Shown in pieces: positions 8,308 to 63,571 of a stretch of DNA of 64,000 nt; position 1 is the stretch's first letter; every line of letters starts with the position of its first letter. The translations under genes and the position numbers were made by a program. The notes beneath the pieces are model-generated. The model saw only the letters and a program-made list of their open reading frames with translations, did no database searches and was not told where the DNA came from. The DNA is taken from contig JBCCPK010000002.1 of NCBI GenBank assembly GCA_039024915.1, positions 186,001 through 250,000 of the forward strand, written 5' to 3'. This stretch comes from Pseudomonadota bacterium. GTDB lineage: Bacteria > Pseudomonadota > Alphaproteobacteria > Rhizobiales > MH13.

Positions 8308-8491
8308 GTCTCAAGGATGGCCCTACCGCCGGAGTGCCCACTAACCATGCACTGCAAACAAGAGTTGCACGGCCATAAGCGATTGTCCTAAGAAACGCCG
8401 ATGCGCGCGTCCGGCTGCTGCTTCCGCGAGGTTGGTCCGCTCACATAAAACGCGCTTTATGCCGCGTGCAAAAAAACAGGGAACAGTACTG

Positions 8492-19098: not shown

Positions 19099-20532
19099 TT
19101 ACGAGCCACCGCTTGGTCCCGTCAGATCGCCGAGCCCGAAACGGCGCATTTTCGCGTAGAGGCTTTGGCGCGACACGCCGAGCATCTGCGCTGCCGAGGC
19201 CCGGTTGTCACCGGTCAGTTTCAGCGCCGCTTCGATGCACAAACGCTCGACCACATCCGTTGTCTCGCGCACAACTTCTTTGAGCGGCATATGCCCAATG
19301 AGATCGGTCAATTGTTCCGCTGATTTCGCTGGGAACCCGGAAACCGGCTCATCGGCGGCCGGCATACGGCTGACACGGCGCAGAACCAACCCGTACAGGC
19401 TCTGCCCATCGGATGGAACACAAACAGCCGTAATCTCAACGTCTTCAGTCGCGCCTAACTCGCCACGCAGGACCGTCGGGAACCGTCTTACAAGCCCATG
19501 CTCGCGGACGTTCGCCAAAAGCACGTTCGCATCAACAGTTGAACGTTCGAACCAATTGTCGAGCGGACCATCGATAACGCGATCCATATTTGCGGCCTGA
19601 ACCATCTCGATAAAGGCGGTATTTGCGCGCTTAACCCGGCGTTGCTCGTCGATCATGACGAAGCCATCAGGCAGCCGTTCGATAACGGCCAACGCATCGT
19701 TTTCGGCGCCGCCGGATGCGTCAGCGGAGGCCCTTTCTGCGCTGAGTAAGCGGACGATCAGATACGACACGTCAGCTTGTCTAAAAAGCGTTGCGCGCGC
19801 CGTGTAGCGCGTCTCGCCAGCCAGCGTCAGATCGCTGAGTTCAGCCTTGCCAACCGATTGGGCAGAACCAAGCATGGCGCGAACGGCTTCCCGATGGTTG
19901 CTTGAAAACACGTGCGTGGCACGCCGGCCCACCATTTTGCCCACGGGCACATCGAGCACTTCGGCCGCCATGGGATTTGCATCACTGATGATCATTGAAG
20001 ACGCGTCGACAATCAGGACCGCTTCACCGACCATCTGGAAAAGCAACCGGTAGCTGGCCTCCGCCTGCCGCAACCGGGTGTATTCGCGCTCCATGGAGAT
20101 CTGAGTGTTCACCAGGCGCTGTTGGAGACGCGCAAGTCCGCGCATATCGCGACCGAACAAGATGATGCGGTCGTCCTCAGCCAACTTGACCGCAACGCAG
20201 CTCATCGGGAGCATCTCGTCACTGTCGCCGACGAAATTCAACTCTCGCTTGCGCGACGTCCCGCCAGAGATGACCTCTCCGAGCGTCGCAGACACTTTGC
20301 TTCTGCTGTCTTCGGCAACACTGTCGATCAGCGGTTGCCCGACCCATTGGTCGAGGCCTTCGCCTGCGATTTCGGCTCCCGAAAAAGCGATATCAAGTAT
20401 GGCACCTGTGTTATCGAGCACCAGCGTCAGATCCGCCGCAGCCGTAAGCAGGATCGCCGCCGCATCGGCATCCATTGCTCCTAAATTCTGGCCGGGGTTC
20501 CTGAAGCTTCGCGCCATCAGGGGGTTTAACAA
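19099..20532 (-). CDS. ppsR: Photosynthesis gene repressor PpsR (CrtJ)
   Basis: A 477-aa cytoplasmic repressor that binds TGT-N12-ACA operators under oxic or bright conditions. An N-terminal PAS-like region (about 25-120), two PAS domains (about 155-265 and 285-400) and a C-terminal Fis-type helix-turn-helix (AAQMLGVSRQSLYAKMRRFGL, about 445-466) are visible. A Cys just before the HTH (VERLCIEAAL) matches the position of the redox Cys in CrtJ/PpsR; no Cys is present between the two PAS domains. The TTG at 20532 follows GGGAG; ATG 20517 is an alternative lacking a ribosome site. It follows ppaA. Confidence 0.93.
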   Translation of the reverse strand: MLNPLMARSFRNPGQNLGAMDADAAAILLTAAADLTLVLDNTGAILDIAFSGAEIAGEGLDQWVGQPLIDSVAEDSRSKVSATLGEVISGGTSRKRELNFVGDSDEMLPMSCVAVKLAEDDRIILFGRDMRGLARLQQRLVNTQISMEREYTRLRQAEASYRLLFQMVGEAVLIVDASSMIISDANPMAAEVLDVPVGKMVGRRATHVFSSNHREAVRAMLGSAQSVGKAELSDLTLAGETRYTARATLFRQADVSYLIVRLLSAERASADASGGAENDALAVIERLPDGFVMIDEQRRVKRANTAFIEMVQAANMDRVIDGPLDNWFERSTVDANVLLANVREHGLVRRFPTVLRGELGATEDVEITAVCVPSDGQSLYGLVLRRVSRMPAADEPVSGFPAKSAEQLTDLIGHMPLKEVVRETTDVVERLCIEAALKLTGDNRASAAQMLGVSRQSLYAKMRRFGLGDLTGPSGGS

Positions 20533-20597
20533 GGGGGTCTCCCACGATTTGCGGCTGTGGCGTAAGTCCCACGGGGTCGCTTTGTTGCTTGTCCTGT

Positions 20598-21533
20598 CTA
20601 GTTCACATGGTGCGCCGGACCATGTCCGGAAACCATGCGATCCAACTGTTGAAGGCCATCACGGCCATCTTTGGCAATCAAATCGGCGCCCAAAGCCCGC
20701 ACTTCGGGAGATTCATGTTCGACGGCTTGCCCGCCTACCATTATTAGCAAGTTCTGATTAAGTGATTCGCTGCGCAAGTCCCCTATTAATTCTGCCAGGT
20801 TTGTCAGCCGATCCCTGTTTCCGACCGATAGTCCGATTGCAGTGAAGCGCGTTTGCCGGACGGCATCAACAAGAGCGTGGGCCGAATTGCCGGCTGGCAT
20901 CCTGACGCACCATCCGGCCTTACGCAGCATCTCCCTTACAATCAGCAAACCAAACAGGTGCTGTTCTCCTGGCGCTCGACCCAGCAGAATTGTGCGGGAG
21001 GGGTCCGACCAAACCGGTGCCTCCTCCTCAAGCCTGCCAAAGCGCAGAATAACCTTTTCGAGCGATGATGTGGCGACTGTCACATCACAAAAGCTGCAGG
21101 CATCGTTAAGCCACAGATCACCGACCCGTCTGGCAGCAGGCGCGCAGAGATCAAGCAGAACGTCGATAACGCGTGCACCGCGCGCTACATAGCCTTCGGC
21201 GTGCCTGAGCGCCGCGAAGGCGTCATAGGTCAGCAAGATCGAGGCGAACTCATCAATCGCAGCGTCGGAATAAGCGTCGGCGCTGATGTTCTGCTCAGAC
21301 GATGATGCCGCGTTTTTCTCATTGGCATAAGAAAGTTCCGGCTGGCCGTCTTCATAGGCAGCCTGTCCAAGTGTCTCGGCACGGCCTTCTCTCAGCCCGG
21401 TGAGCAGGTGGGGAATGATCTGTTCCTGAACGGCGGAAACAAGATTGAAGCCGTCCGAACGAAGGCCTTCGCTCATGGCCGAGCGAGGCTCTGACTGTAT
21501 TTGATCGACAGACTGGCTGCTTCGATCCGTCAT
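20598..21533 (-). CDS. ppaA: PpsR antirepressor PpaA/AerR
   Basis: A 311-aa regulator with a C-terminal B12-binding-like domain (about residues 150-300): the segment LLGRAPGEQHLFGLLIVREML carries the His of the PpaA/AerR type, and FTAIGLSVGNRDRL and LLIMVGGQA follow the Rossmann-like pattern. The central helical region includes FCDVTVATSSLEKVILRFG. Family members bind cobalamin and modulate PpsR/CrtJ in response to light. The N-terminal 90 residues are longer and more polar than usual. It lies 65 bp before ppsR in the same direction, the normal arrangement. Confidence 0.9.
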   Translation of the reverse strand: MTDRSSQSVDQIQSEPRSAMSEGLRSDGFNLVSAVQEQIIPHLLTGLREGRAETLGQAAYEDGQPELSYANEKNAASSSEQNISADAYSDAAIDEFASILLTYDAFAALRHAEGYVARGARVIDVLLDLCAPAARRVGDLWLNDACSFCDVTVATSSLEKVILRFGRLEEEAPVWSDPSRTILLGRAPGEQHLFGLLIVREMLRKAGWCVRMPAGNSAHALVDAVRQTRFTAIGLSVGNRDRLTNLAELIGDLRSESLNQNLLIMVGGQAVEHESPEVRALGADLIAKDGRDGLQQLDRMVSGHGPAHHVN

Positions 21534-48792: not shown

Positions 48793-48836
48793 TGACAGTT
48801 TAATTTGACACATTTACATGTCAAGTTAGTTTGACA
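48793..48836 (-). promoter_or_regulatory. Tandem PpsR operators before bchC
   Basis: TGTCAAGTTAGTTTGACA (48819-48836) is a perfect TGT-N12-ACA, and TGACAGTTTAATTTGACA (48793-48810) is one base off. They are exactly 8 bp apart, the arrangement described for cooperative CrtJ binding at the R. capsulatus bchC promoter. They sit between the crtF stop and bchC. Confidence 0.85.
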
Positions 48837-48855: not shown

Positions 48856-50085
48856 TTACAGAACCTTCGCACTGATAACGCGGGTCAACAGCGGATTGGA
48901 TGTTTGGTGCTCCCGAACGTTGTCAAAGCCTGCGTCGGCGAGAAACCGCTTGATCTCACCGAACGTTCGCGGGCGACCCGACCGCATCGCCATGAGATAA
49001 AAGCCAAAATACGCGTCACCCGCCTTCTTAGCGCCTGGCGTATCGGCCATTGGCTCTGCAATCACGACCGTCCCGCCCGGAAGCAGCGCTGAGTGCGCCT
49101 GGTCCAGAAGCTTGCGTGCCTTGTCGTCATCGTGGTCGTGCAGAACGCGAACCAAAGTCACCAAATCGGCCATCTGAGGCAGCGAATCCACAAAGAAGTC
49201 GCCCCCAATGACGCCACCACGCTGGGCGAAGCCAGCATCGGCGAAGCGCAACTCCGCGCGTTCGGCCACTGCGGGCAGGTCGAAAACTGTTGCCTTTATC
49301 TTCTTGGAGCGCATCATGGCCGCTTCGGCAAACCGGCCCTCCCCACCTCCAATATCAAGCAATTGCTGATGTCTGGTGACGGGATAGGCGTCGAGCACCT
49401 CAGCGCAGATGAAATCCTGAGACGACGCCATCAGCTGAGAGTACGAGGCAACCGATTCGGCAGGCAGTGCGTCCGGCACGCTGTCTTGCGCATAGGCCCA
49501 ATAGCGCGACAAGGATGTCGCGCTTGACGGGTCGCGAAGCAAAGCAACCGGGTCGCGTAAGTCCTGGTACAACAAAGCATGGTGGTGGACCATCGCGATC
49601 ACACCGGGGTTGGCGAGGAGCGCGGCACCTAATTGGCCAAGTCCGTAGCGCTCATCACCACGCTCTTCAATCAGATCAAGGGCTTGTGCACCCTTAACCA
49701 CGGTGCGTACGGAGTTAACCGGTAAGTCGAGCGCCTGAGCGAGCGACTTCACAGTCTTTGGACCAGATCGCAGATGTTCAAACAGGTTCAGGCGGACGCA
49801 GGTTGTCAAAATTTGCGTGTAAACGAACCCAGCAGCCAGATCGAACAGCTCGCGTGTTCGACGGCGCGCCATCGGCTTCGTTAGCGGAAAACGGCTGGCC
49901 CAGCGGATAAAACCCGGTTTCTGCAACAGCGCGTCGCGCCACGCCAACCATCTGTCCCGCACGAAGTTCAACTGCCCGCCACCGGCCAAAAGCCGCCTTA
50001 CTCTAGGGTCATCACTTGCGCGGGCTCGCACCTCGCGCCAGGCATTGCCATGCCGAAACTTCGTCGGCTTGACAAGCAAGTCCAT
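48856..50085 (-). CDS. crtF: Hydroxyneurosporene-type O-methyltransferase CrtF
   Basis: A 409-aa SAM-dependent enzyme that methylates the tertiary hydroxyl of acyclic carotenoids. The dimerisation region FVYTQILTTCVRLNLFEHLRSGP is followed by the SAM motif LLDIGGGEGRFAEA, then VTLVRVLHDHDDDKARKLLDQAHSALLPGGTVVIAEPMADTPGA with the catalytic HDHDD pattern. ATG 50085 has no clear ribosome site; GTG 50112 is an in-frame alternative. It follows crtE in the same direction. Confidence 0.93.
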   Translation of the reverse strand: MDLLVKPTKFRHGNAWREVRARASDDPRVRRLLAGGGQLNFVRDRWLAWRDALLQKPGFIRWASRFPLTKPMARRRTRELFDLAAGFVYTQILTTCVRLNLFEHLRSGPKTVKSLAQALDLPVNSVRTVVKGAQALDLIEERGDERYGLGQLGAALLANPGVIAMVHHHALLYQDLRDPVALLRDPSSATSLSRYWAYAQDSVPDALPAESVASYSQLMASSQDFICAEVLDAYPVTRHQQLLDIGGGEGRFAEAAMMRSKKIKATVFDLPAVAERAELRFADAGFAQRGGVIGGDFFVDSLPQMADLVTLVRVLHDHDDDKARKLLDQAHSALLPGGTVVIAEPMADTPGAKKAGDAYFGFYLMAMRSGRPRTFGEIKRFLADAGFDNVREHQTSNPLLTRVISAKVL

Positions 50086-50126
50086 CGCGGGATCGCGGCT
50101 TACTTCATTCACAACTGGCTTCAAAA

Positions 50127-51011
50127 CTATGCGGCGACCAGTGAAAGGTTCTTCGGTTTCAGCCGCTTTGCTTCGGATTTGATCAACGCCTCTAAGGATG
50201 CTGCTCCAGCACACGGCGGTATGGCTGCGATTGCAGATGCCACGTAGTCTTCCAGGCGCGTCACCGTCTCACGGACACCACAACTGCTCACGAGGCTCGG
50301 CCGATGATGAACCTGGTCCTGTCCGGTGGGCTTTCCAAGCTCTTCCTCTGTGCCCAAGGCGTCGCGTAAATCATCGGCTGCCTGATAGGCAGCACCTAAC
50401 GCCTGACCAAGACGCCTCCAAGGCGCGGGATCATCCCCGGCGGCTTGAGCACCGGCGGCTGCAGCTCCAATGAACAGGCCCCCGGTTTTCGCGCGATGAT
50501 AGGCTTCCACTGGTACCGCAGTCTCGCTTTCCCAACCCTGACCTGCAACAATGCCTCCCGGCATGCCTGCCGCCGCGGCCAGCGTCGAGAGAACGGGGCC
50601 GAGCCTTTCAGGTGCCTCTTCAGCGGCGTGGCCGAGCACATCAAAGGCGAGCACGATCAGTGCATCACCAGCAAGCAGCGCCAAGGCTTCGCCATATGCC
50701 TTGTGAACAGACGGCAAACCCCGACGAATATGAGCGTCATCGAAGCAAGGCATGTCATCATGAACGAGAGACGCGCAGTGGAGCAATTCAATACTCGTTG
50801 CCGCCGCACCCGCCAACCTTGGCGCATCGCCGCCACAAGCCATTGAAACCGCCAGGCAAAGCCTCGGCCGGACCCGCGCGCCACCGGGGAAGACAGCGTG
50901 GCGAACCGCCATGCCCAATTGTCCCGGCGCGCGTTCGCATCCTCGTCCGCGCCCTTGAGCCAATTGGACCGCCAGCTCCAGGCCGCGTTCGATCGAAGAT
51001 GAGGCATCCAT
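50127..51011 (-). CDS. crtE: Geranylgeranyl diphosphate synthase CrtE
   Basis: A 294-aa polyprenyl synthase making GGPP for carotenoids and the chlorophyll tail. The first Asp-rich motif is LVHDDMPCFDDAHIRRG and the second AADDLRDALG; GGARVRPRLCLAVS precedes them. I chose ATG 51011, which follows GGAG; the upstream start at 51086 would place coding sequence over PpsR operators. Confidence 0.94.
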   Translation of the reverse strand: MDASSSIERGLELAVQLAQGRGRGCERAPGQLGMAVRHAVFPGGARVRPRLCLAVSMACGGDAPRLAGAAATSIELLHCASLVHDDMPCFDDAHIRRGLPSVHKAYGEALALLAGDALIVLAFDVLGHAAEEAPERLGPVLSTLAAAAGMPGGIVAGQGWESETAVPVEAYHRAKTGGLFIGAAAAGAQAAGDDPAPWRRLGQALGAAYQAADDLRDALGTEEELGKPTGQDQVHHRPSLVSSCGVRETVTRLEDYVASAIAAIPPCAGAASLEALIKSEAKRLKPKNLSLVAA

Positions 51012-51062
51012 TGTCTGCTCCAAACCATTTTCATCCAGCGGCACTCGTTGGAGACCGATAGT

Positions 51063-51106
51063 TGTCAATTTAATCGGACTATGCAAACTGTCAAATTAAA
51101 TTGACA
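51063..51106. promoter_or_regulatory. Tandem PpsR operators between crtE and crtD
   Basis: TGTCAAATTAAATTGACA (51089-51106) is a perfect TGT-N12-ACA; TGTCAATTTAATCGGACT (51063-51080) has one mismatch at the end. Exactly 8 bp separate them. They lie in the divergent gap and can control both the crtEF and crtDC transcripts. Confidence 0.85.
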
Positions 51107-51156: not shown

Positions 51157-52689
51157 TTGCCTAAGGATGAAATCGTCATAGTCGGCGCGGGCATGGGTGG
51201 CCTCTCGGCGGCGCTGAAGCTGGCGGCAAAGGGCTTGAGCGTCACGCTTGTCGAAGCGCGCAAGGAGGTCGGCGGTAAGGTTCGCGCACTGCCTGTTGGC
51301 AGCAGGCCCATCGACGGCGGCCCCACGGTGTTCACAATGCGTTGGGTCTTCGAAGAGCTTTTCGATGAAGCTGGTCTCGAATTCAGCGACTTCGTCGAAC
51401 TCAGCCGGTGTGATGTTCTTGCGCGCCATGCATGGGACGAGCGCGGCTACCTTGACCTGTTTGGCGATGTTGAGCGCAGCACCGACGCGATAGCGGCGTT
51501 CTGCGGCTCATCGGAAGCGCGCGCTTTTCAGAGTTTTGCACGTCAAGCCGCCGAGATGTACGAACTATTGGAGGAACCGTTCCTGCGCTCGTCAAAACCA
51601 TCCGTTATGAGTTTGAGCGCGCATCTAGGTTTCCGGGGTTTCTCCGTCCAACCGTTCTCGACACTCTGGCAGTCTCTCTCGAAGGTTTTTTCCGACCCAC
51701 GCCTGATCCAACTGTTTGGTCGGTATTCGACTTACACCGGCGCTTCTCCCTTCTCCGCACCGGCAACACTCATGCTGATCGCCCATGTTGAGATGCAAGG
51801 GGTCTGGCAGGTCAGCGGTGGTATGAAAAACCTTGCGCTGGCCATGCGCCGGGCGTGCGAAGCGAAGGGCGTTACCGTTCGAACAGACTGTCCAGTTGAA
51901 CGGATAGAGACCGACGGCGGAAAGGTCTCCGCTGTCCTGTTATCGTCCGGCGAGCGCTTTGGGGCGAATGCGGTGATCGCAAACACCGATGCATCGGCAT
52001 TGGGTACCGGCATGCTCGGTCGCGAAGTTGCCGGCGCAGCAGAGCCGGTTCCACCATCGCAACGTTCACTATCTGCGATCGCGTGGACGCTCGAGGCGAA
52101 CACCAGTGGATTTGACCTGTCGCATCACAATGTCTTTTTCGGGAGCGATTACCCAGAAGAATTTGAGGCGACCTTACAACGCGGCAAATTCCCGAACGAT
52201 CCAACCGTTTATCTGTGCGCTCAGGACCGATCGGCGAACGCCCAGATGGCGTCTATCACCGACGCCGAGCGCATGCTGATGGTGATCAATGCACCGCCCC
52301 ATGGCGACACCAACGGCACGCTGAACGAGGAGATGATCGCATGCGCCGAGCGAGCTTTGCAGCGATTGGAGGCATGCGGGTTGACGGTATCGGTCGACGA
52401 GGCCGCGAGCGTTCAAACCGGCCCGGTTGGTTTCAGCCAGCTGTTTCCCGGCTCCGGGGGGGCTTTGTATGGCCGCGCCAACCACAGCCCCTTTGCCAGC
52501 TTCAAGAGAGCGGACAATCGAACGGCCGTACCGGGGCTGTACCTCGCCGGGGGGAGCGTTCATCCGGGGCCTGGGGTTCCGATGGCAGCCCTTTCGGGTC
52601 GCCTGGCAGCAGCGGCTTACCTGGCCGACCGCACTTCGACGCTCTCACGCCCACGGGCGGTTACCGTTGGTGGTACATTGACGGCCTGA
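51157..52689 (+). CDS. crtD: Methoxyneurosporene-type dehydrogenase CrtD
   Basis: A 510-aa FAD-dependent desaturase of the CrtI/CrtD family. FAD motif VIVGAGMGGLSAALKLAAKGLSVTLVEA, then GGPTVFTMRWVFEELFDEAG and HHNVFFGSDYPEEF, which are CrtD-like, and the C-terminal LYLAGGSVHPGPGVPMAALSGRLAAAAYL. The start is TTG 51157 after AGGGAG. It is the only desaturase of this family in the window, so the enzyme could be wrongly taken for CrtI; its sequence favours CrtD. Its last codons overlap crtC. Confidence 0.9.
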   Translation: MPKDEIVIVGAGMGGLSAALKLAAKGLSVTLVEARKEVGGKVRALPVGSRPIDGGPTVFTMRWVFEELFDEAGLEFSDFVELSRCDVLARHAWDERGYLDLFGDVERSTDAIAAFCGSSEARAFQSFARQAAEMYELLEEPFLRSSKPSVMSLSAHLGFRGFSVQPFSTLWQSLSKVFSDPRLIQLFGRYSTYTGASPFSAPATLMLIAHVEMQGVWQVSGGMKNLALAMRRACEAKGVTVRTDCPVERIETDGGKVSAVLLSSGERFGANAVIANTDASALGTGMLGREVAGAAEPVPPSQRSLSAIAWTLEANTSGFDLSHHNVFFGSDYPEEFEATLQRGKFPNDPTVYLCAQDRSANAQMASITDAERMLMVINAPPHGDTNGTLNEEMIACAERALQRLEACGLTVSVDEAASVQTGPVGFSQLFPGSGGALYGRANHSPFASFKRADNRTAVPGLYLAGGSVHPGPGVPMAALSGRLAAAAYLADRTSTLSRPRAVTVGGTLTA

Positions 52690-53552
52690 GCGATGACGGG
52701 CGCCACGGCCTCACCGTCATAGGGTTCGTGGGCAGCGTTTTCTCGCCCTATTACGCATGGTCTGATCGCTCGAAGCCCGAAGACCATGTGTGCATTAATG
52801 TTGCTCTGTATGGCGACACAAGGCGCTGGTCGATGACCGAGCGGGGTCGCAGCGCACTGGCACAAACCCCCGATAGCTTCACCGTCGGTCCCAGTTCAAT
52901 TCGGTGGCAAAACGACACGCTTGTTATTGCCGTCAACGAAATCTGTGCGCCGCTTCCGCGCCGCTTGAGCGGGGAGATCCGCTTTCGCCCGGATTTCGTC
53001 CAAAACAGATCCTTTGAGCTGGACAGCAATGCGAGGCATCACTGGTGGCCGTACGCGCCGTTCGGCACCATCTCCGCGGACTTTCAACGCCCCGCACTAT
53101 CTTGGAGCGGGCATGGTTATGCAGACACCAATACTGGTTCGGCCGCACTTGAAGATGATTTTTCAGGTTGGACCTGGTCGCGGGCGACGGTGGATGATGG
53201 CACCGTGATCTTCTACGAGCCAGATGAGCGTTCGGGTCGACAGTCTGTCATCGCCATCCACGTGGATCACCAAGGTCGCGTAGAGACTTATACTGCTCCA
53301 CCCACTGCCCAACTAAAGCCTGGGCTGTGGGGCATCAAACGCCATACGCGATCTGAGATCGCCGATGAAGCGAAAATCACAACGCCGTTTCTAGACGCGC
53401 CATTTTACACGCGCGACGTGATATCAATCATTTTGAACGGCAAAGCGTGTCCCGCGGTGCACGAAGCTCTCAATCTTGACCGCTTCAGATCTGGCTGGGT
53501 CAAGCGGCTCTTGCCGTTTCGGATGCCGCGTCGGAGCCATTGGCCGACTTAG
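52635..53552 (+). CDS. crtC: Carotenoid 1,2-hydratase CrtC, start unresolved
   Basis: The reading frame matches CrtC from GGYRWWYIDGLSDDGRHGL onward, then VGSVFSPYYAWSDRS, DHVCINVALYGD and HHWWPYAPFGTISADFQRPALSW. CrtC adds water to the terminal double bond of neurosporene or lycopene. The coordinates mark where family similarity starts, 55 bp inside crtD. No ATG, GTG or TTG occurs in frame nearby: ATG 52374 is far inside crtD, GTG 52728 would remove conserved residues, and CTG 52686 is non-standard. It ends overlapping the 61-aa orf on the other strand. Confidence 0.85.
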   Translation, partial: FDALTPTGGYRWWYIDGLSDDGRHGLTVIGFVGSVFSPYYAWSDRSKPEDHVCINVALYGDTRRWSMTERGRSALAQTPDSFTVGPSSIRWQNDTLVIAVNEICAPLPRRLSGEIRFRPDFVQNRSFELDSNARHHWWPYAPFGTISADFQRPALSWSGHGYADTNTGSAALEDDFSGWTWSRATVDDGTVIFYEPDERSGRQSVIAIHVDHQGRVETYTAPPTAQLKPGLWGIKRHTRSEIADEAKITTPFLDAPFYTRDVISIILNGKACPAVHEALNLDRFRSGWVKRLLPFRMPRRSHWPT

Positions 53553-53704: not shown

Positions 53705-54199
53705 TTACGCGTCGTTTGGTACGCTCGTTGCGGTCGAGCGGTTTATGCGCAGCAAGGTCCAATTTAAGAAGGCAGCGAAACTCACCCACGCCAGATAGGG
53801 CAGCATTAACGCGCCTGCCAAAGTGGAGATTGGCCAGAACAGGACAATCGTCCAGACAATTGCAAGCCAAAGTGCGGCGACCTCTATCAAGGCCAAGTCC
53901 ATGCGACGAGCCCCAAAGAAGATTGCCGACCAAAGCGCATTCAAGGCCAGTTGTGCCAGCCATGCACTTAGTGCGAGCAGCCCCGCACCCTGCAAACCTG
54001 CCTGACGATAAACCAGCCATGCTGAAATCGCCATCATGGCAAAAAGCGCGGTCCAGGCGACCGGAAACAACCAGTCAGGCGGATTCCATGACGGCTTGTT
54101 GAGTTGCCGATACCATTCGCCAGGGCGGAACACACTTCCCGATAAAGCCGCGACGAAACACAACCCAAAAAAGGCGAACAGTGACCAAGAAATCGTCAT
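53705..54199 (-). CDS. tspO: TspO/MBR family protein
   Basis: A 164-aa five-helix outer-membrane or envelope protein (CrtK) that binds tetrapyrroles and tunes pigment gene expression in Rhodobacter. Marks are WYRQLNKPSWNPPDWLFPVAWTALFAMMAISAWLVY and LALNALWSAIFFGARRMDLALIEVAALWLAIVWTIVLFW. It lies 144 bp after crtB in the same direction, as in Rhodobacter (crtIB-tspO). Confidence 0.95.
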   Translation of the reverse strand: MTISWSLFAFFGLCFVAALSGSVFRPGEWYRQLNKPSWNPPDWLFPVAWTALFAMMAISAWLVYRQAGLQGAGLLALSAWLAQLALNALWSAIFFGARRMDLALIEVAALWLAIVWTIVLFWPISTLAGALMLPYLAWVSFAAFLNWTLLRINRSTATSVPNDA

Positions 54200-54343: not shown

Positions 54344-55429
54344 CTAATTCGCGCGAGTGACCGTCGTACGCGCACTATCACGTCGCGCAAGCAGATGAAT
54401 GAGTTGTATCATCCGACCAACCCCACGATCCGGCTCATCATCGGCTGGCAGAAAGCGCTGATCCTTGAAGTCTTCGCGGCGCGATGGTGCACCGGTAGTG
54501 ACCGCATCGACCAGAAAGGTTGTCTCTTCAAGGGCTGGTTCATCCACGACACCTTGGGCACGGAGGCTTTGCCTTCCAGCGGCAGCCAACAAGGCGAGCT
54601 TGCGGCTGGTCGTCACAAAAGCTCGATCATCGATCGAGTTGTACCCATTGTCGGCGATGACGCTGCCAATTTCGCTATAGATCAGCCGGGCACCGTGTAT
54701 TGCTGGACGGCAATCGGTCGGCAACTGCGCGATACCACTCAAAGCCCGATCATAAAGCGTTCGAGCCTCACCAAGCAGGTGGCGCGTGCAATCGGCTACA
54801 GCTTCACTAAATTTTGGCGAAGCAACAAACTCGTCGGGATCAATACCCGCCCTCTCAAGCCACTCGGTCGGGATGTAGGTCCGACCACGCCGTGCATCCT
54901 CCCCAACATCGCGAGCGATATTTGTAAGCTGCATTGCCACACCTAGATCGCACGCGCGTGCGTGCGTGCCCTGGTCACGCGTTCCCATGAGAATGGTCAT
55001 CATCGAACCAACGGACGCGGCGACACGCGCGCTGTAGGCGATGGTATCCGACAAGGTTTTTGGTCGCCAACCAGCGGCATCCCACTCGAGGCCCTCAAGC
55101 AAGGCTTCGGGCAAAGCGCGAGGCATATCAAAGGCTTCAATGACGTCCGCGAACGCCCGGTCGGCAGGAATAGCCTCCGGACGTCCGGCATAGACCCGGT
55201 CTAGGCGGTCCCTTAGCCGATCGACCGCATCAACCGGCGCGTCAAGCGCATCGACGGCATCATCGGACAAGCGGCAAAAAGCATAGAGGGCGTATGCAGG
55301 CTTTCGAACCCTTTTAGGCAGCAGTAGCGAGGCCGCGTAAAAGGACTTGGACCCGCGGCGGATCAATGCCCGGCAAGCGGTCTCGTTCCAGCCCATCTGC
55401 AAGGACGCTTTGAATTCCGGGCTCGTCAT
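54344..55429 (-). CDS. crtB: Phytoene synthase CrtB
   Basis: A 361-aa prenyltransferase joining two GGPP molecules to phytoene. The Asp motifs are FCRLSDDAVDALD and TNIARDVGEDARRGRTYIP; the N-terminus has RRGSKSFYAASLLLPKRVRKPAYALYAFCR. It begins 34 bp after bchO. In the usual order crtI lies between bchO and crtB; it is absent here. Confidence 0.95.
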   Translation of the reverse strand: MTSPEFKASLQMGWNETACRALIRRGSKSFYAASLLLPKRVRKPAYALYAFCRLSDDAVDALDAPVDAVDRLRDRLDRVYAGRPEAIPADRAFADVIEAFDMPRALPEALLEGLEWDAAGWRPKTLSDTIAYSARVAASVGSMMTILMGTRDQGTHARACDLGVAMQLTNIARDVGEDARRGRTYIPTEWLERAGIDPDEFVASPKFSEAVADCTRHLLGEARTLYDRALSGIAQLPTDCRPAIHGARLIYSEIGSVIADNGYNSIDDRAFVTTSRKLALLAAAGRQSLRAQGVVDEPALEETTFLVDAVTTGAPSRREDFKDQRFLPADDEPDRGVGRMIQLIHLLARRDSARTTVTRAN

Positions 55430-55463
55430 TTGTCACCCTTCCGGAAACTCGTTCTTGTCAGCA

Positions 55464-56357
55464 TTACGCGAACACTCCACGCTCGTGCGTAAACGATAGA
55501 CATCGCCGCGCGAACTCCTCGGGTCGTTCCTCATGCAGCAGATGCCCGCAGCCCTCAACGATTTCTAACGATGCGTTCGGCATCGCTTCTGCAACACGCG
55601 CCGAAACCGCCGGTCGCACGGTCCTGTCTTTATCGCCCGCCAGAAGCAGGGTTGGCGTACCAACGTCTTTGAAACGTGACTGGAGACGTTGAAGATCCCA
55701 GTTCGCCATCATCGCCAAAGCCCCGGCTATGTGCCCGGACGACATCATCAAGGCATGGTAGTAGTCGACGCCCTGTTGGTCGATCTGCGACCCAGTCTGA
55801 TCGATCAGCCGCCGAACGCGGCGTTCATCGCGCCCCGAAAGGGCAAACACTCTGGGCGTCAGCGGATTGATGAAAAGCAGCTTCGCCATTGCCGGAAAGA
55901 CCGAACCTGCCAAACCTTCAAACGGTTGGAAAGCACCGTTTACGCCGATGAGTGCACGCGGCTGGACCGCTTGGCTGTGGATTGCCTCGATGAGAATTGC
56001 AGCTCCCGCCGAGTGGCCAATGGCAACGTCAACGGACACACCAATCTCATCCAACAAACCTGCCACCAGTCGCGCAACACGGGGAAGCGTCAGACGATAG
56101 CTCGGGGGTGCATCTGTAAACGCGTGCCCGGGCAGATCGATAGCCAATACCTGCATGTGCTGCGCCAGCAGCGGCATAACATCCCGCCAGGAATGGGATG
56201 AGGCGCCGGTACCGTGGATAAGAAGAGCGACGGGCCCCTCGCCCATGGTCTGCACGTGCCACCGTAACCCACCAGAATCAACAAACTCGCTGACCGAAGC
56301 GTGGGGCCAGACCTTGCCGAGTGCGCGCCATGAAGGTGGATCAGGAGCGAGAAACAT
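55464..56357 (-). CDS. bchO: Mg-chelatase-associated alpha/beta hydrolase BchO
   Basis: A 297-aa alpha/beta hydrolase found with bchI and bchD. It shows ALLIHGTGASSHSWRDVMPLL, VLAIDLPGHAFTD, the nucleophile elbow IGHSAGAAILI and the final His in EGCGHLLHEERPEEFA. Its precise role in pigment synthesis is not established. It follows bchD by four bases. Confidence 0.93.
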   Translation of the reverse strand: MFLAPDPPSWRALGKVWPHASVSEFVDSGGLRWHVQTMGEGPVALLIHGTGASSHSWRDVMPLLAQHMQVLAIDLPGHAFTDAPPSYRLTLPRVARLVAGLLDEIGVSVDVAIGHSAGAAILIEAIHSQAVQPRALIGVNGAFQPFEGLAGSVFPAMAKLLFINPLTPRVFALSGRDERRVRRLIDQTGSQIDQQGVDYYHALMMSSGHIAGALAMMANWDLQRLQSRFKDVGTPTLLLAGDKDRTVRPAVSARVAEAMPNASLEIVEGCGHLLHEERPEEFARRCLSFTHERGVFA

Positions 56358-56361
56358 GCGG

Positions 56362-58239
56362 CTAGCCTCGCCCTACAGACGAAGCCGCGGCCGCTACCGC
56401 CGCGGTGATCCCTTCGGCACTGGCGTGCGGAAGTGGCAGATAGTGCGCCGCCATCGCTTGCGACAACTCCGCGGCCTTCGAGCTCTTGCGTGGGCTCGTG
56501 TCGATAAGCATGGCCGACAGACGTTCGGTCGCGAAGCGTCGCGCCGCTGACAGAGCATCCGCATGCGCTGCTGCGCGGCCAGAAGCATTGCCATAACCGA
56601 CGTTCGCCTGCCCGTCCGTCATGAACACCACCCGAGGAGATTGCCCCCGCTTTCGGCAATCGCTGGCAAGCTGACCACCCGCATCGATTGCCAACGCGAG
56701 CGGTGTCCCACCACCTCCAGGTAGCGCAGCCAGCGCTCTTTTGGCGCGCACCAGCGAGCGGGTCGGCGGCAAGATCAATTCCGCAGCTGACCCGCGAAAT
56801 GCAATCAAGCCAACATAGTCTCGCCGTGCATAGCTCTCAGCGAGCAGCAGCTCCACCGCTCCCTTGACCTCGGCTAACCTGTTGAGTGCGGACGAACCGG
56901 AGGCGTCAACGACGAAGATCGTGACGCTTTCCTCGCGATGCTTGAAACGCCGGACCCGAATATCGTCGGCTCGTACATCAACACTACTCGCAACCCCTGC
57001 ATTGCCACGTTCCCGCTTACGAAGCGTCTGCCACGGCGCCGCTGTCCGCAGAGTATCAACGACATGAAGCCTCTGGTGACCACCGATCCGACCGCGCTTT
57101 GAACCTAACGGTCGCCCGCGTTGAGGCGCCATTCGAACCGCGCCCTGCCCGGCGGCTGACCTTGAAGACTGCGATTGAAAGGCGGCGCCGAGCTTAAGTT
57201 GCTGAAGCAGATCAGCCGGTATGGCTGCCGTCACAGCCTCAACGACGCGGTCATCAAGGGGGCCTTGATCCATGGAATTGTCATCTGCCTGGAGATCGCT
57301 CCGATCTTTGGGATCAGCTTGCTCCTGATCACGTGGATCGGGCCTATCCTGCTCCGAAGGTTCATCTTCGACCGGCTCAGTTTGCTCGACACTCGGAAGT
57401 TGGGTGGCTCTTGGCGCAATCACCAGCCTCGCCGCGAGTCCGACATCATCTTGCGACGCTAGATCACGGCCATTGAGCGCCGCGAGAGCGTGAGCCGCCC
57501 GCACCGCAAAAAGCCCGATACGAGCCGAGCGGACTCCGAAAGCGTCCGCTATCGCCATAACCGCCTCGACAATTTCGCCCTGTTCGCTCCGCTGCTCATA
57601 ACGACCCCGTGCCGCTTCGACATCCGCTGCATGAATCGTAGGCGATACGCAGTCTCGGATCGAAAGCGCACGAAGGTCGAAGCTGAAGGCAAGGCGGTCG
57701 GCAAGCGCTGGCGCAAGCGTTTCATGATCATCCAGGCCCTCGTCAAGCGCCACAACTCCGACGCGCGCGTCCAAACGGTGGGCCAACCCGTCACGTTCGA
57801 CAGCGACCTTCCCGCTATCAAGAGCGTTTAGGAGCCGCGTTACAACGAGGCCCTCGGCTCGCTCTGCCATTGGAACGACGACGACACCACCATCTGCTTC
57901 CGAAAGCAGACCCCTCTGGGCAACTGGCCGACCTTGAGACAAGGTGGCGGCAAGGTCGAGACCACCGGCGAGCCGGTCATCTGGGCAGTGGACCGGCAGC
58001 TTGCGAAGCGGTCCGTACCCTTTCACCAAGCCTGATACATGAGCGACCATCCGATCGCGCACCGGCCCCGCATGCGCGCGAACCGAGATACCGCCAAACC
58101 CAGCGGGCGCAACGGCAAAGCAAGCCGCTGCCATGCAGCTATCCGCCCAAACCATGGCGCGAACATCGTCTCCGGGTATCGGGGCGGGCGCATGAAGTGG
58201 CTGTCCTTGCACGCCAGTAAAAGGGAGGTTGGCGGTCAC
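56362..58239 (-). CDS. bchD: Mg-chelatase subunit BchD
   Basis: A 625-aa subunit. An N-terminal AAA+-like domain without a normal P-loop is followed by an acidic/proline linker (EPVEDEPSEQDRPDPRD, about 292-308) and a C-terminal integrin-I domain with the MIDAS motif VVDASGSSALNRLAEVKGAVELLL. It is somewhat longer than usual (about 560-600). The start is GTG 58239, overlapping the bchI stop. Confidence 0.93.
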   Translation of the reverse strand: MTANLPFTGVQGQPLHAPAPIPGDDVRAMVWADSCMAAACFAVAPAGFGGISVRAHAGPVRDRMVAHVSGLVKGYGPLRKLPVHCPDDRLAGGLDLAATLSQGRPVAQRGLLSEADGGVVVVPMAERAEGLVVTRLLNALDSGKVAVERDGLAHRLDARVGVVALDEGLDDHETLAPALADRLAFSFDLRALSIRDCVSPTIHAADVEAARGRYEQRSEQGEIVEAVMAIADAFGVRSARIGLFAVRAAHALAALNGRDLASQDDVGLAARLVIAPRATQLPSVEQTEPVEDEPSEQDRPDPRDQEQADPKDRSDLQADDNSMDQGPLDDRVVEAVTAAIPADLLQQLKLGAAFQSQSSRSAAGQGAVRMAPQRGRPLGSKRGRIGGHQRLHVVDTLRTAAPWQTLRKRERGNAGVASSVDVRADDIRVRRFKHREESVTIFVVDASGSSALNRLAEVKGAVELLLAESYARRDYVGLIAFRGSAAELILPPTRSLVRAKRALAALPGGGGTPLALAIDAGGQLASDCRKRGQSPRVVFMTDGQANVGYGNASGRAAAHADALSAARRFATERLSAMLIDTSPRKSSKAAELSQAMAAHYLPLPHASAEGITAAVAAAASSVGRG

Positions 58240-59255
58240 CCGACCAACTCCGCAAGTGCCTTTTCGACCCGTGTGACCGCTCGCGAGTCGTCAAGGGGGT
58301 TGCGGCGAAGGCGATGCCCGAGAACCATAGGTGCAACGAAGTCGAGCGCCGCCTCACCGACTTGTTCTTCACCCTCCAAGGCTGCATGCGCTCGTGCGGC
58401 GCGCATCAGGGTCAGCTCCCCTCTCAGCCCATCGGTACCTAACGCCATGCACAGCGCAGCGGCGCGTTCCAGCGCACGGTCTGGGACATCGACACTCTCC
58501 AACCGTTCGCGCGCTGAGACGATGCTGCGCCGAACCTGGGCGTCTTTCCGCTTCCACTTCTCATAGAAAGCCGTGGGATCACGATCGAACGCATCGCGAC
58601 GTCGTACGACCTCAATACGGTCTTTGATCGCTTCGGGCGTTGCAACATCCACCGACAATCCAAACCGATCGAGGAGCTGCGGGCGCAACTCGCCTTCTTC
58701 GGGGTTGCCGGAACCGATCAGAACAAATCGCGCCGGATGGCGGATGGACAGCCCCTCGCGTTCCACAAGGTTCTCACCTGAGGCTGCGACATCGAGCAAC
58801 AAGTCCACGAGATGATCTTCGAGCAGATTGATTTCATCAATGTACAGAAAACCTCGATTGGCCTGGGCCAGCAAACCGGGCTGAAACGACCGCTCGCCCT
58901 GGGTGAGAGCCTTTTCGATATCCAATGCTCCGACAACCCTATCTTCGGTTGCGCCAAGCGGTAAGTCGACCACGGGAACAGGAACCAGACGGCTCTTCAC
59001 ACCATCGGTTTCAGGTATGGACGTCGGATCGATATTGTAGGGCGACCCCAACACGACGCGCATCTTCGGCAGTAGCTGAGCGAGGGCTCGCACAGCTGTC
59101 GACTTGCCGGTCCCTCGATCACCAAAGACCAGGACGCCACCTACCGCAGGGTCGACCGCTGAGATCAGCAGCGCCCGCTTCATGGATGTCTGGCCAACAA
59201 TGGCTGAAAATGGAAAGGCTGCCCGCTCGCCCAAATCGTTTATCCCACGCAACAT
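58236..59255 (-). CDS. bchI: Mg-chelatase ATPase subunit BchI
   Basis: A 339-aa AAA+ ATPase. It begins MLRGINDLGERAAFPFSAIVGQ, has Walker A VFGDRGTGKSTAVRAL, Walker B GFLYIDEINLLEDHLVDLLLD and GSGNPEEGELRPQLLDRFGL. It heads the bchIDO-crtB-tspO run. No crtA lies upstream. The 250 bp before it contain a lone TTTTGACA half-site but no full PpsR operator. Confidence 0.96.
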   Translation of the reverse strand: MLRGINDLGERAAFPFSAIVGQTSMKRALLISAVDPAVGGVLVFGDRGTGKSTAVRALAQLLPKMRVVLGSPYNIDPTSIPETDGVKSRLVPVPVVDLPLGATEDRVVGALDIEKALTQGERSFQPGLLAQANRGFLYIDEINLLEDHLVDLLLDVAASGENLVEREGLSIRHPARFVLIGSGNPEEGELRPQLLDRFGLSVDVATPEAIKDRIEVVRRRDAFDRDPTAFYEKWKRKDAQVRRSIVSARERLESVDVPDRALERAAALCMALGTDGLRGELTLMRAARAHAALEGEEQVGEAALDFVAPMVLGHRLRRNPLDDSRAVTRVEKALAELVG

Positions 59256-60065: not shown

Positions 60066-60896
60066 TCAGTTCAGCGGTATTCCAAGGATTTCCCGAGCCT
60101 GCTGCCAGGTTGCGACCGGTCTTTCATTCTTCTCGCAGACCTGCGCGGTGCGCCCGACGAGCGCAGCGTTGGACGGCGCAAGGGTCTCGCGATCGAAGCG
60201 AACATTGTCTTCAAGACCCGTACGAGCGTGGCCGCCCGCCGCGATGGACCACTCATTCACAACGATCTGGTTGGGACCGATGCCGGCGGCACACCAGGGA
60301 GCGCCGGGTACGAGGCGCTCGACGGTCTCGACGTAGAAGTCGAACACATGCTTATCCGCAGGCATGGCGTTTTTCACACCCATGACAAACTGGATGTAAG
60401 GCGTGCCCTCGATCGCGCCGTCTCTCCACAGCCGGACGGCTTGGATAATGTGGGACAGGTCAAAAGCTTCAATCTCTGGTTTCACGCCATATTCCCGCAT
60501 CTCTGAAGCGAGCCAATTCACCAGATCGGGTGGGTTTTCATAAACGCGCGTCGGGAAATTGTTCGAGCCCACTGATAACGAGGCCATATCTGGCTTCAAA
60601 GGAAGCATGCCTCCACGCTCCTTGCCTGCACCTGAACGCCCGCCGGTCGAAAACTGAATGATCATTCCCGGGCAGTGCGTTTCGAGGCCTTCTTTCAGAC
60701 GCGCAAACCTTTCAGGGTCCGACGATGGCGTCTGGTCATCGTTGCGAACATGAGCGTGGACGATACTGGCGCCGGCTTCGAAGGCTTCGTGCGTCGACTC
60801 CACCTGTTCGGACACCGTAATAGGCACCGCGGGGTTGTTCGCCTTTGTGGGCAGCGAGCCGGTGATTGCCACGCAGATGATGCATGGATGAGCCAT
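60066..60896 (-). CDS. Beta-keto acid cleavage enzyme (BKACE, DUF849)
   Basis: A 276-aa TIM-barrel protein of the 3-keto-5-aminohexanoate cleavage family, which uses acetyl-CoA and a zinc ion to split beta-keto acids. It has CIICVAITGSLPTKANNPAVPITVSEQVES, ASIVHAHVRNDDQTPSSDP with metal-ligand His residues, IIQFSTGGRSG and ARTGLEDNVRF. As the last gene after a monooxygenase and a ring-cleavage dioxygenase it may process a beta-keto acid such as 3-oxoadipate from ring cleavage. Confidence 0.88.
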   Translation of the reverse strand: MAHPCIICVAITGSLPTKANNPAVPITVSEQVESTHEAFEAGASIVHAHVRNDDQTPSSDPERFARLKEGLETHCPGMIIQFSTGGRSGAGKERGGMLPLKPDMASLSVGSNNFPTRVYENPPDLVNWLASEMREYGVKPEIEAFDLSHIIQAVRLWRDGAIEGTPYIQFVMGVKNAMPADKHVFDFYVETVERLVPGAPWCAAGIGPNQIVVNEWSIAAGGHARTGLEDNVRFDRETLAPSNAALVGRTAQVCEKNERPVATWQQAREILGIPLN

Positions 60897-60899
60897 CGT

Positions 60900-61790
60900 T
60901 CAACTCGCTTCCGTCATGACGAAATCGAACTGTGATTTCCATTGGGGCCCACCGGGCTCACCGGTCTCCATGCTTGCGATCAGCGAGGCCTTGACGCCAA
61001 ACACCGCGTCTGACGTCAACCATCTATCTCCAGCAACAAAGGTGTGGGTGATGATCTGCTCATAGCCAGGTGCTGTGACAAGGAAGTGCATGTGTGCGGG
61101 CCGGTTTGGATGGCGACCGAGCGCGGCGAGCAACTTACCCACCGGGCCATCATCGGGGATAGGATAGGATACCGGACGGACCCCGATAAAGTGGTAGTCC
61201 CCACTGGCGCTGGTGGTGAACACGCCGCGATTGTTGAAGGGAGGCTGAACGTCTGGCTGCTGGACGTCGTAAAAGCCGTCGGCATTGTCGCTCCAAACAT
61301 CAATCTTCGCGCCCTCGATGGGCTGGCCTTGGCGATCAACAACTTGACCGTGAAACAGGCAGCTTTCGCCCTTGCCGTCGAGGGAGATGTTGGCACCCAT
61401 GGGATAATTGGGTGCATCATCGAGGTGAAAGGGCCCGAGAACCGTGTTTTCGGTTGCGCCCGACGGGCGTCGATTGTTGATCGCATCGACAAGCATGGAG
61501 ACGCCCAAGGTATCGGACAGGAGAATGAACTCTTGCCGGTTTTCGTCGCACATGTGCCCGGTTTTCGTCAGGAAATCGATCGCGATGCCCCACTCGTCCT
61601 GTGTCAACTCAACATCCTTGACGAAGCCATGCAGGTGCTTGACGAGCGAGGCGATGACCGTTGCCAGCCGTTCATCGGCGTCAGGGCTCATGCGTGCGTT
61701 AACGGCGTCAACCGAATGGTCTTCGGTGAAGTAATCAATCGTATCAGCTATATCTGCATTGCTTAGTTGGGATTTGACGGCGCTACTCAT
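60900..61790 (-). CDS. Intradiol ring-cleavage dioxygenase (catechol/hydroxyquinol 1,2-dioxygenase)
   Basis: A 296-aa non-heme Fe(III) dioxygenase. The helical N-terminal domain is followed by the catalytic barrel; the iron ligands are Tyr in APNYPMGA, Tyr in PVSYPIPDDGP and both His in RPAHMHFLV with HPN just before. The linker EYA-like residues and PIEGAKIDVWSDNADGFYDVQ are typical for catechol/hydroxyquinol enzymes. It overlaps the monooxygenase gene (ATGA). Distinguishing catechol from hydroxyquinol specificity needs structure or assay. Confidence 0.9.
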   Translation of the reverse strand: MSSAVKSQLSNADIADTIDYFTEDHSVDAVNARMSPDADERLATVIASLVKHLHGFVKDVELTQDEWGIAIDFLTKTGHMCDENRQEFILLSDTLGVSMLVDAINNRRPSGATENTVLGPFHLDDAPNYPMGANISLDGKGESCLFHGQVVDRQGQPIEGAKIDVWSDNADGFYDVQQPDVQPPFNNRGVFTTSASGDYHFIGVRPVSYPIPDDGPVGKLLAALGRHPNRPAHMHFLVTAPGYEQIITHTFVAGDRWLTSDAVFGVKASLIASMETGEPGGPQWKSQFDFVMTEAS

Positions 61791-63571
61791 TGGGCCGCCT
61801 CCCGCACCGCGTCGACATCGCGGTGTAGAAGCGTCGCTAACACTCGCGTCAGTTCAGCCTGTGGGTCCTCGGCCATGTCTTCCGCGCGCCAAGCAACGTG
61901 TTGGTCTGGTCGAACCAGAACGCAACCGGCCTCATTCACTTCGCGGGCCCTCGCCCACTCGCCATGATGGTCTATCAACGCGCGGCGCGGCCCGATCACA
62001 TGGGTAACAACATCGATGCCCATGGCTTTGCCGACAGCCTGCGCAGCCGCAGCCCAGGGCTCGCCATTGATACCGGTGAGAATTGTGAAACGGCCTTGGC
62101 CGACCAGATCAAGCGTCGAGTGTTTTCCACCTTCATGATCGTAGACCCAGGCATGAGGAATACGCGCACCCGGCCAGGTCGTGGGCTGATAATGGAGTTC
62201 CGCGTCCAGCTCGAATGCCGGCTCCATCTGGCCATCGGTGACGACGGCGGACGACTTGTAGCGCTGGTTCATCTCAACGCCGTGGGCGTCGAACTCGTAC
62301 TTCTTGAAGGCTATGGCATCGCGGATCGCCGCGCGTTGTTTTTCAGCTTCCTGATTCGCATCGCAGCGGGCGACCATATTGGCTTGCATGACCTCCGGGT
62401 CAGTAGACTCAGTTAGGCCCAGCGCTTCGAAGATCGGACCGAATTCGCCGATAGACTGGTTGGCGCGGGTAACGATCTGCTTTGCGACCGGCGCTCGTTC
62501 TTCGGTGTAGGTATCAAGCAGGCTATCGCCAGCCTCGCCTTTGACCACGGCCGCCATCTTCCACGCGAGGTTGAAGCTATCCTGGATCGACGTGTTGGAG
62601 CCGAGCCCATTCGAGGGCGGGTGCCGGTGCGCGGCGTCGCCCATAATGAACACGCGGCCCGCCTGCATGTTCGTCGCGTACATATTGTTGACGGTCCAGG
62701 TCGAAACAGACGTGATCTTTGGTTCGATCGTCTGGTCACCTACCAGGTCCCGGACAACCTTGGTCGCAAACGCATCCGTCACCTCTGGCGCCGGTTGGTT
62801 GATGTCGTAACCCCACACGATCAACCACTCATCCCAAGGGCGAACCATGCGGACGAGGCCCATACCGATGCCACCAACATCAGCGCCTGGTTGAACGACC
62901 CAATAAAGGACTGACGGACGATGAGCGACGTACTTAGAAAGGTCGGCTTTGAAAATAATGTTCATGGAACCGCCCACGCCCATCTGCCCTTCAAACGGCA
63001 GGTTTTCGAGCTCGGCAACCTTCGAGTTGCCACCATCGGCACCGATCAGGTAGCGCGAGCGGATTTGAAACTCCTTGCCTGACAACCGATCAAGGCAGGT
63101 GGTGGTCACACCGTCGGCGTCCTGTTCGTGGCGCAGGTATTCGGTCGACAGGCGTGCCTGCGTACCGCGTGAGCAGGCGGTCTTGAACAGAAGCGGCTCC
63201 ATAAAGGTCTGCGGCAGATCGTTCATCATTGTGGGCGAAGCCAGCAGATGTTCAGCCTTCGACATGGGGTGATTGCCCCAGCTTTTCATGCGACCGATTT
63301 CTTCGCCAGCAAGGCTCTCGCAAAACACGTTTTCGCCCATCAGTTCCTGATGCGCAGCGAACATGTAAGCCTCGTCCTCGACGTCTTTGCCCAAGTCCCG
63401 CAGGACCTCCATTGTGCGCTGGTTTGTGATGTGCGCGCGCGGCGTATTGGCGAGCCAACGGTAGCGATTCACGGCTATGTTCGCGACGCCGTAGGTCGAC
63501 AGAAGCGCGGCCATGGACGAGCCGGCAGGACCCGTGCCGATGATCAGGACGTCGGTTGTGATGTCAGCCAT
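61787..63571 (-). CDS. FAD-dependent aromatic monooxygenase (TfdB/phenol hydroxylase-like)
   Basis: A 594-aa flavin hydroxylase. FAD motif LIIGTGPAGSSMAALLSTYG at the N-terminus, then the second motif GRVFIMGDAAHRHPPSNGLG and SIQDSFNLAWKMAAV; the C-terminal thioredoxin-like domain ends with VLVRPDQHVAWRAEDMAED. Relatives hydroxylate phenols, chlorophenols or resorcinol. Together with the dioxygenase it would make and then cleave a catechol or hydroxyquinol. It overlaps the upstream permease by eight bases. Confidence 0.9.
   Translation of the reverse strand: MADITTDVLIIGTGPAGSSMAALLSTYGVANIAVNRYRWLANTPRAHITNQRTMEVLRDLGKDVEDEAYMFAAHQELMGENVFCESLAGEEIGRMKSWGNHPMSKAEHLLASPTMMNDLPQTFMEPLLFKTACSRGTQARLSTEYLRHEQDADGVTTTCLDRLSGKEFQIRSRYLIGADGGNSKVAELENLPFEGQMGVGGSMNIIFKADLSKYVAHRPSVLYWVVQPGADVGGIGMGLVRMVRPWDEWLIVWGYDINQPAPEVTDAFATKVVRDLVGDQTIEPKITSVSTWTVNNMYATNMQAGRVFIMGDAAHRHPPSNGLGSNTSIQDSFNLAWKMAAVVKGEAGDSLLDTYTEERAPVAKQIVTRANQSIGEFGPIFEALGLTESTDPEVMQANMVARCDANQEAEKQRAAIRDAIAFKKYEFDAHGVEMNQRYKSSAVVTDGQMEPAFELDAELHYQPTTWPGARIPHAWVYDHEGGKHSTLDLVGQGRFTILTGINGEPWAAAAQAVGKAMGIDVVTHVIGPRRALIDHHGEWARAREVNEAGCVLVRPDQHVAWRAEDMAEDPQAELTRVLATLLHRDVDAVREAAQ

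Follow-up and report, generated by a model that had tools for sequence, protein, structure and literature searches.

Probable relocation of crtI from the bchO-crtB junction of an alphaproteobacterial photosynthesis gene cluster, and three uncharacterised genes that accompany it

The stretch of DNA analysed here (the window, 64,000 nucleotides) encodes a photosynthesis gene cluster (PGC) in which bchO and crtB lie side by side and crtI is missing from its customary place between them. Our analysis indicates that crtI has in all likelihood been neither lost nor replaced but relocated: an intact crtI, coding for a protein of 501 amino acids without an internal stop, is present on another contig of the same genome (C9, 10374-11879, minus strand). 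The original prediction had offered three interpretations of the empty junction, and these fared differently. That crtI lies elsewhere was borne out by a genome-wide search and a phylogenetic tree, and the intact C9 gene explains the absence as a simple relocation; a takeover of its function by CrtD was not supported; and altered synthesis of coloured carotenoids is not shown by an empty junction. Rearrangement of crt genes is already known, and the missing crtI is an ordinary PGC rearrangement of this kind. What looked like the loss of a core pigment gene is explained by a move, so no new chemistry is needed to account for it. The more interesting part is the conserved trio of genes found around the relocated crtI, which encode a P450, a protein here termed hyp8032 and an ATP-grasp ligase. 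Many photosynthesis clusters of alpha- and gammaproteobacteria, from named isolates and MAGs alike, contain these three uncharacterised genes together with crtI or crtD.

The bchO-crtB junction and its surroundings

The junction measures 34 bp (55430-55463), a gap that the original prediction had read correctly according to the ORF coordinates, and contains neither crtI nor a crtI remnant; in other PGCs it is the site of crtI or of crtI together with the P450 group. The gap is more than chance: of 68 retrieved loci that include bchO as well as crtB, 64 contain crtI at the junction and 4 contain nothing. Junctions lacking crtI are under-sampled, because the majority of these loci were retrieved through their CrtI. 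On the minus strand the gap is bordered by crtB, encoding phytoene synthase (54344-55429; NF045921, 404.9 bits, which is below the curated cut-off of 500 yet the best match by far), and by bchO (55464-56357; TIGR03056, 327.8 bits, cut-off 172.55), followed by bchD (56362-58239; NF009943, 706 bits, cut-off 571) and bchI (58236-59255; TIGR02030, 479 bits, cut-off 466.95). Downstream of crtB are tspO, also called crtK (53705-54199, minus strand; NF047825, 163.8 bits, below the cut-off of 180), crtC for a carotenoid 1,2-hydratase (52686-53552, plus strand; NF045922, 325.5 bits, below the cut-off of 400), and crtD (51157-52689, plus strand). Beyond these come a crtE-type polyprenyl diphosphate synthase gene (50127-51086, minus strand), assigned from its PGC position with matches below cut-off to NF045485 (172 bits) and to the CrtE model NF045685 (142 bits), and a crtF-type O-methyltransferase gene (48856-50214, minus strand), assigned mainly from its PGC position with 51.9 bits to TIGR02716 (C20_methyl_CrtF), far below the cut-off of 276. 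Since CrtC, TspO, CrtB and the CrtE- and CrtF-type proteins all fall below the curated cut-offs, their names rest partly on position. The window additionally encodes the repressor PpsR (19099-20532, minus strand; TIGR02040, 397.9 bits, cut-off 275.4) and, according to profile matches, bchCXYZ, pufM, bchP, bchG, puhA and puhB. An Rfam search of the whole window returned nothing at gathering scores.

These are the same genes as in the classical bchI-bchD-bchO-crtI-crtB type of PGC seen in Rhizobium, Aestuariivirga and others, and the order of crtB, tspO, crtC, crtD, crtE, crtF, bchCXYZ and puf is likewise kept; the genome differs from this type in having crtI off the junction and on another contig.

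The gene at 51157-52689 proved to be crtD, as had been proposed from its sequence. Its product matches the 1-hydroxycarotenoid 3,4-desaturase model NF045637 with 638.9 bits (cut-off 580), and in a quick CrtI/CrtD tree of 73 rows, from which 21 named loci (to reduce near-duplication) and CrtI-like rows below 450 bits were left out, it falls with same-genus CrtD in the CrtD half (support 100 for the split) and not with CrtI, the other placement that the original prediction had considered. That this protein replaces CrtI by itself performing phytoene desaturation is scarcely credible. The two enzymes are homologous, the protein passes the broad CrtI family model, if only with 251 bits against a cut-off of 238, and NCBIfam includes a model for a bifunctional CrtID, to which it scores 202 bits (cut-off 640); these points are outweighed by its 639 bits to the CrtD equivalog, its CrtD clade membership, its usual place beside crtC and the existence of a separate intact CrtI in the genome. 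CrtD standing in for CrtI was thus rejected on the NF045637 score and tree position, and with a normal CrtD in the window and a normal CrtI present such a takeover is not needed.

The crtI gene on contig C9 and its putative control

Searching the whole genome with the CrtI family model TIGR02734 (cut-off 238.1) yielded two matches above the cut-off, namely the CrtD of the window and C9:10386-11846 (608 bits), and the complete C9 protein passes the same model with 607.6 bits. In the tree it is placed in the CrtI half, in a group of 4 rows (support 100) with the orthologues from the three same-genus relatives. The genome assembly is a draft of 35 contigs that is 97.6% complete; contamination as the source of C9 is unlikely because orthologous crtI groups occur in all three same-genus relatives (G001, G002 and G003; CrtI identity 78-83%) and the GC content of C9 (57% over the 20 kb read) is similar to that of the window (59%). 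There was also no evidence that C9 is a repABC plasmid, the RepA partition model having no match above cut-off in the genome and none whatever on C9; hyp8032 found no match in a plasmid collection. A second phytoene synthase elsewhere was ruled out, as the CrtB model matches a single gene in the whole genome.

Two palindromes in the window, TGTCAAATTAAATTGACA between crtE and crtD (51089-51106, plus strand) and TGTCAAGTTAGTTTGACA between bchC and crtF (48819-48836, plus strand), are PpsR-type operators with scores of 12/12, the TGT-N12-ACA palindrome being what we take to be the PpsR/CrtJ operator motif. From these two promoters an extended pattern, TGTCAA-N6-TTGACA with at least 10/12 positions and at least 5/6 in the core, was derived and used as the pattern for sites on C9. 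One such site, TGTCAGATTTATTTGACG (C9 11895-11912), lies in the crtI promoter, 16 bp upstream of the ATG, and matches at 5/6 core and 10/12 extended positions, with one core mismatch (TGT..ACG). Another (C9 8033-8050), found in the same extended-pattern scan, lies in the divergent P450/hyp8032 promoter. These are the only two sites in 20 kb of C9, compared with 0.45 expected and a maximum of 3 in Markov sequences; the window has 7 compared with 1.4 expected (maximum of 4 in 60 Markov sequences), and 32 kb of window flank has none. Counts of the strict TGT-N12-ACA form are not above chance in either region (window 11, expected 8.4; C9 locus 1, expected 3.1). Sites of the extended type recur at both the crtI and the P450/hyp8032 promoters in all four members of the genus; in the relatives those between P450 and hyp8032 score slightly less well. 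This suggests that the relocated crtI keeps a putative photosynthesis-type control site, whose presumed regulator PpsR is encoded in the window. Control of the trio by PpsR is suggested for this genus only, because a strict site occurs in just 4 of 39 P450/hyp8032 promoters across lineages, 3 of the 4 being from this genus. Beside ppsR in the window is a gene for a B12-binding-domain protein (20598-21533, minus strand), presumably PpaA/AerR, with a TGT-N12-ACA site at 20590.

The C9 gene could alternatively be a second, non-photosynthetic crtI, with the photosynthetic copy lost or unassembled. Such a possibility draws on the draft state of the assembly and on other AAP bacteria which, in the available text of PMC3176799, carry crt genes outside the PGC; but besides CrtD the C9 protein is alone in the genome in exceeding the family cut-off, CrtB is single, the C9 CrtI groups with PGC-located CrtIs, and its gene bears the PpsR-type site. 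We accordingly regard it as very improbable and retain relocation as the preferred reading.

Position and probable movement of the crtI group in related genomes

The four empty junctions belong to the window, its same-genus relatives G003 and G002, and a Hyphomicrobium relative, G152. At the other extreme, 16 of the 68 loci, a subset of the 64 with crtI in the junction, have crtI, hyp8032, P450 and ATP-grasp genes all placed there. PGCs of Hyphomonadaceae, Candidatus Phycosocius and Steroidobacteraceae show the order crtI-crtD-hyp8032-P450-ATP-grasp between bchO and crtB; they share the crtI, hyp8032, P450 and ATP-grasp genes with the genome of the window, which differs in having the group away from the PGC and crtD still with crtC. 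In G152 a crtI-crtD-hyp8032-P450-ATP-grasp series occupies one contig (L113) and the empty junction another (L119).

Within the genus the gene order in G003 is P450, hyp8032, crtI, ATP-grasp, bchI, bchD, bchO, crtB, and G002 agrees with it (maps L093 and L086). The crtI group thus lies directly upstream of bchI in these two genomes, which is not so in the window. In G001 the group adjoins the same genes, for a DUF3833 protein and a 153-aa protein, as on C9, and bchI is split over two contigs, with upstream genes that differ from those of the window. Among the three same-genus relatives the DUF3833 neighbour of the C9 group was found in G001 alone and is absent from G002 and G003. Upstream of bchI in the window, in the position where G003 and G002 carry the crtI group, an aromatic-degradation group adjoins the PGC (60066-63571, minus strand), comprising a BKACE enzyme of the 3-oxoadipate:acetyl-CoA acetyltransferase type, an intradiol (catechol-type) dioxygenase and an FAD monooxygenase.

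On grounds of parsimony the simplest reading of these arrangements is that crtI departed from the junction with its neighbours at least twice. The ancestral junction would have been bchO-[crtI with or without hyp8032, P450 and ATP-grasp]-crtB, and in the ancestor of the genus the whole group would have left it, remaining beside bchI in G003 and G002 and coming to adjoin other genes in G001 and the genome of the window. Which way the group moved within the genus can be argued from parsimony only, as the DUF3833 neighbour of the C9 group is missing in G002 and G003. The CrtI tree pairs the C9 protein (L009:10374-11879) with that of G003 (L093; support 98). For hyp8032 and BchI, G002 is the partner of G003 instead, a conflict which hints that crtI may have been exchanged between members of the genus. 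A check for repeats at the C9 group brought up none of note, and neither a mobile element nor a direct repeat nor an alignable empty site came to light that would show how the group moved.

Displacement of crt genes has precedents. In the available text of PMC3176799, crtIBK lies away from crtA in D. shibae, and in C. litoralis KT71 it is crtD that lies outside the PGC; the order bchO-hyp-hyp-grxC-crtI given for D. shibae in the accessible part of PMC6052148 places three genes between bchO and crtI. These organisms resemble the genome of the window in having crt genes displaced inside the PGC or away from it. The genome of the window differs in that its crtI is accompanied by P450, hyp8032 and ATP-grasp genes, a group that goes unmentioned for them in the available parts of these sources.

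The companion genes and the carotenoid pathway

On C9 the P450 gene (6560-8029) is divergent from that of hyp8032 (8032-8862, with the probable true start at the ATG at 8050), and the ATP-grasp ligase gene (12007-13170; PF02655, 37.4 bits) is next to crtI. In every one of the 43 loci that yielded both, the P450 and hyp8032 genes stand next to each other in divergent orientation, and the ATP-grasp gene lies less than 300 bp from the P450 gene in 29 of 33. Some loci are redundant, L014 and L113 being apparently from the same genome and L071-L077 near-identical relatives. The occurrence of hyp8032 and CrtI in one locus (42 of 45) is inflated, since CrtI matches had served to retrieve the majority of the loci. 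The clade of the CrtI tree to which the C9 CrtI belongs (support 99) has 35 rows, of which 26 carry the group, L095 without hyp8032, and four Halieaceae-type rows with the group fall outside this clade.

The trio is linked to phototrophy in two surveys, both of which include the genome of the window. Relatives of hyp8032 were detected in 8 of 297 genomes sampled from the order, all among the 60 with PufM, and the full-length protein in 3 of 385 genomes sampled from the class, all among the 25 with PufM; 7 further genomes of the class sample, none of them pufM-positive, matched weakly (26-35 bits) and over the first quarter of the protein only. Strong P450 matches (at least 57% identity) were confined to 7 of the 297 genomes, all pufM-positive, and weaker ones (35-43%) occurred in 6, among which G148 and G089 are not pufM-positive. 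Of 6 genomes outside the genus that were found via hyp8032, 3 had crtI in the sequence retrieved and 4 had the P450, so that the tie of the trio to phototrophy is firmer than its tie to crtI.

A profile of 22 P450s from the group, in which the presumed catalytic residues are invariant, has as its best match among PDB sequences the plant CYP97A3 (LUT5, 6j94; 235 bits), the next, unrelated, sequence scoring 204, so that a CYP97-like nature of the C9 enzyme is suggested by this profile search. CYP97A3 is a carotenoid hydroxylase of plant plastids that acts on cyclic carotenes, whereas the expected substrates of the C9 enzyme are acyclic. The protein at C9 12007-13170 has an ATP-grasp ligase fold in its AlphaFold model (pLDDT 90.6), for which Foldseek gave PylC at E 1.4e-14 and VIA a Z of 25, with rmsd 2.7-3.6 over 278-315 residues and PylC and PurK among the nearest structures. 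For hyp8032 the model (pLDDT 90.1) is a bundle of seven long helices, and the protein has four invariant histidines. It retrieved nothing from the PDB at E below 0.2; its VIA rows reach Z 9.1 with mixed helical folds, which need mean no more than helix packing, and Pfam gave no match even at E 10 except two chance-level rows.

With regard to the pathway, the original prediction was right that crtA is absent near bchI, and CrtA was not found elsewhere in the genome either: G000-G003 (G000 being the genome of the window) gave no match to a query that detects CrtA in 8 further loci (45-100% identity), and CrtA is likewise absent from all 45 hyp8032 loci. A spirilloxanthin-type pathway is hence expected. 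CrtB would make phytoene, CrtI would desaturate it to lycopene, and CrtC, CrtD and the CrtF-type enzyme would lead on to spirilloxanthin-type carotenoids, with no spheroidenone-type 2-ketolation in the absence of CrtA. From its position in the tree, apart from the Rhodobacter/Sulfitobacter pair, we infer that the C9 CrtI takes phytoene to lycopene in four steps; the Rhodobacter CrtI is a three-step enzyme according to the available text of PMC10604819.

The grouping of a P450, an ATP-grasp enzyme and a candidate membrane protein with crtI makes a modified carotenoid possible, and judged from sequence the trio is probably a carotenoid-tailoring group; that it has some role in carotenoid metabolism is the view we moderately favour. 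With less confidence, the P450 might oxidise a carotenoid, the ATP-grasp enzyme conjugate the product and hyp8032 act as a membrane partner. Extending this, we put forward as a tentative proposal, which we hold to be somewhat short of an even chance, that the four genes form a co-regulated tailoring cassette which travels as a unit between and within alpha- and gammaproteobacterial PGCs, in which the P450 would oxidise a carotenoid of the spirilloxanthin series, the ATP-grasp enzyme would add an amine or other small molecule and hyp8032 would serve in the membrane, resulting in an undescribed photosynthetic carotenoid. If the group does modify a carotenoid, many AAP bacteria assumed to be plain-spirilloxanthin producers may make something else. 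No description of the crtI/P450/hyp8032/ATP-grasp group was found in the available text of open-licence papers, and a cytochrome P450 flanks the Citromicrobium PGC in the available part of PMC3338782.

Candidatus Phycosocius bears directly on this proposal. Its genomes carry the trio (L017, L021), its PGCs lack crtA, and its cells absorb like spirilloxanthin, as reported in the available text of PMC10008586; its chromophore is therefore probably little altered, and any tailoring would lie outside the chromophore or be partial. That those authors read the absorption as spirilloxanthin also lends weight to a different explanation, in which the trio is unrelated to carotenoids, serving for example bacteriochlorophyll or lipid metabolism, and is merely co-located with crtI, as would be compatible with relocation. 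The diversity of ATP-grasp enzymes, the proximity on C9 of further P450, epimerase and ketosynthase genes, and the presence of crtI in only half of the stretches found via hyp8032 point the same way. We consider this explanation unlikely, though still to be reckoned with, in view of the unbroken pairing of P450 and hyp8032, the closest PDB match of the P450 profile being CYP97A3, and the restriction of full-length hyp8032 to pufM-positive genomes in both samples. A role in carotenoid tailoring stays the reading that we moderately favour for the trio.

The genes just mentioned, for an HpnA-like epimerase, a second P450 and a beta-ketoacyl synthase, lie beside the crtI group (L009:14609-19058) and are possibly a separate biosynthetic cluster. 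P450s 48-50% identical to that of C9 are found in the CrtA-bearing PGCs of three Rhodospirillales-type MAGs (L038, L040 and L078), which gave no hyp8032 or ATP-grasp match. In another pufM-positive genome (G440; L117 and L116) bchO adjoins crtC, with neither crtB nor crtI between; this genome has a hyp8032 relative about 170 kb from pufM, and one TAA was counted inside its pufM match.
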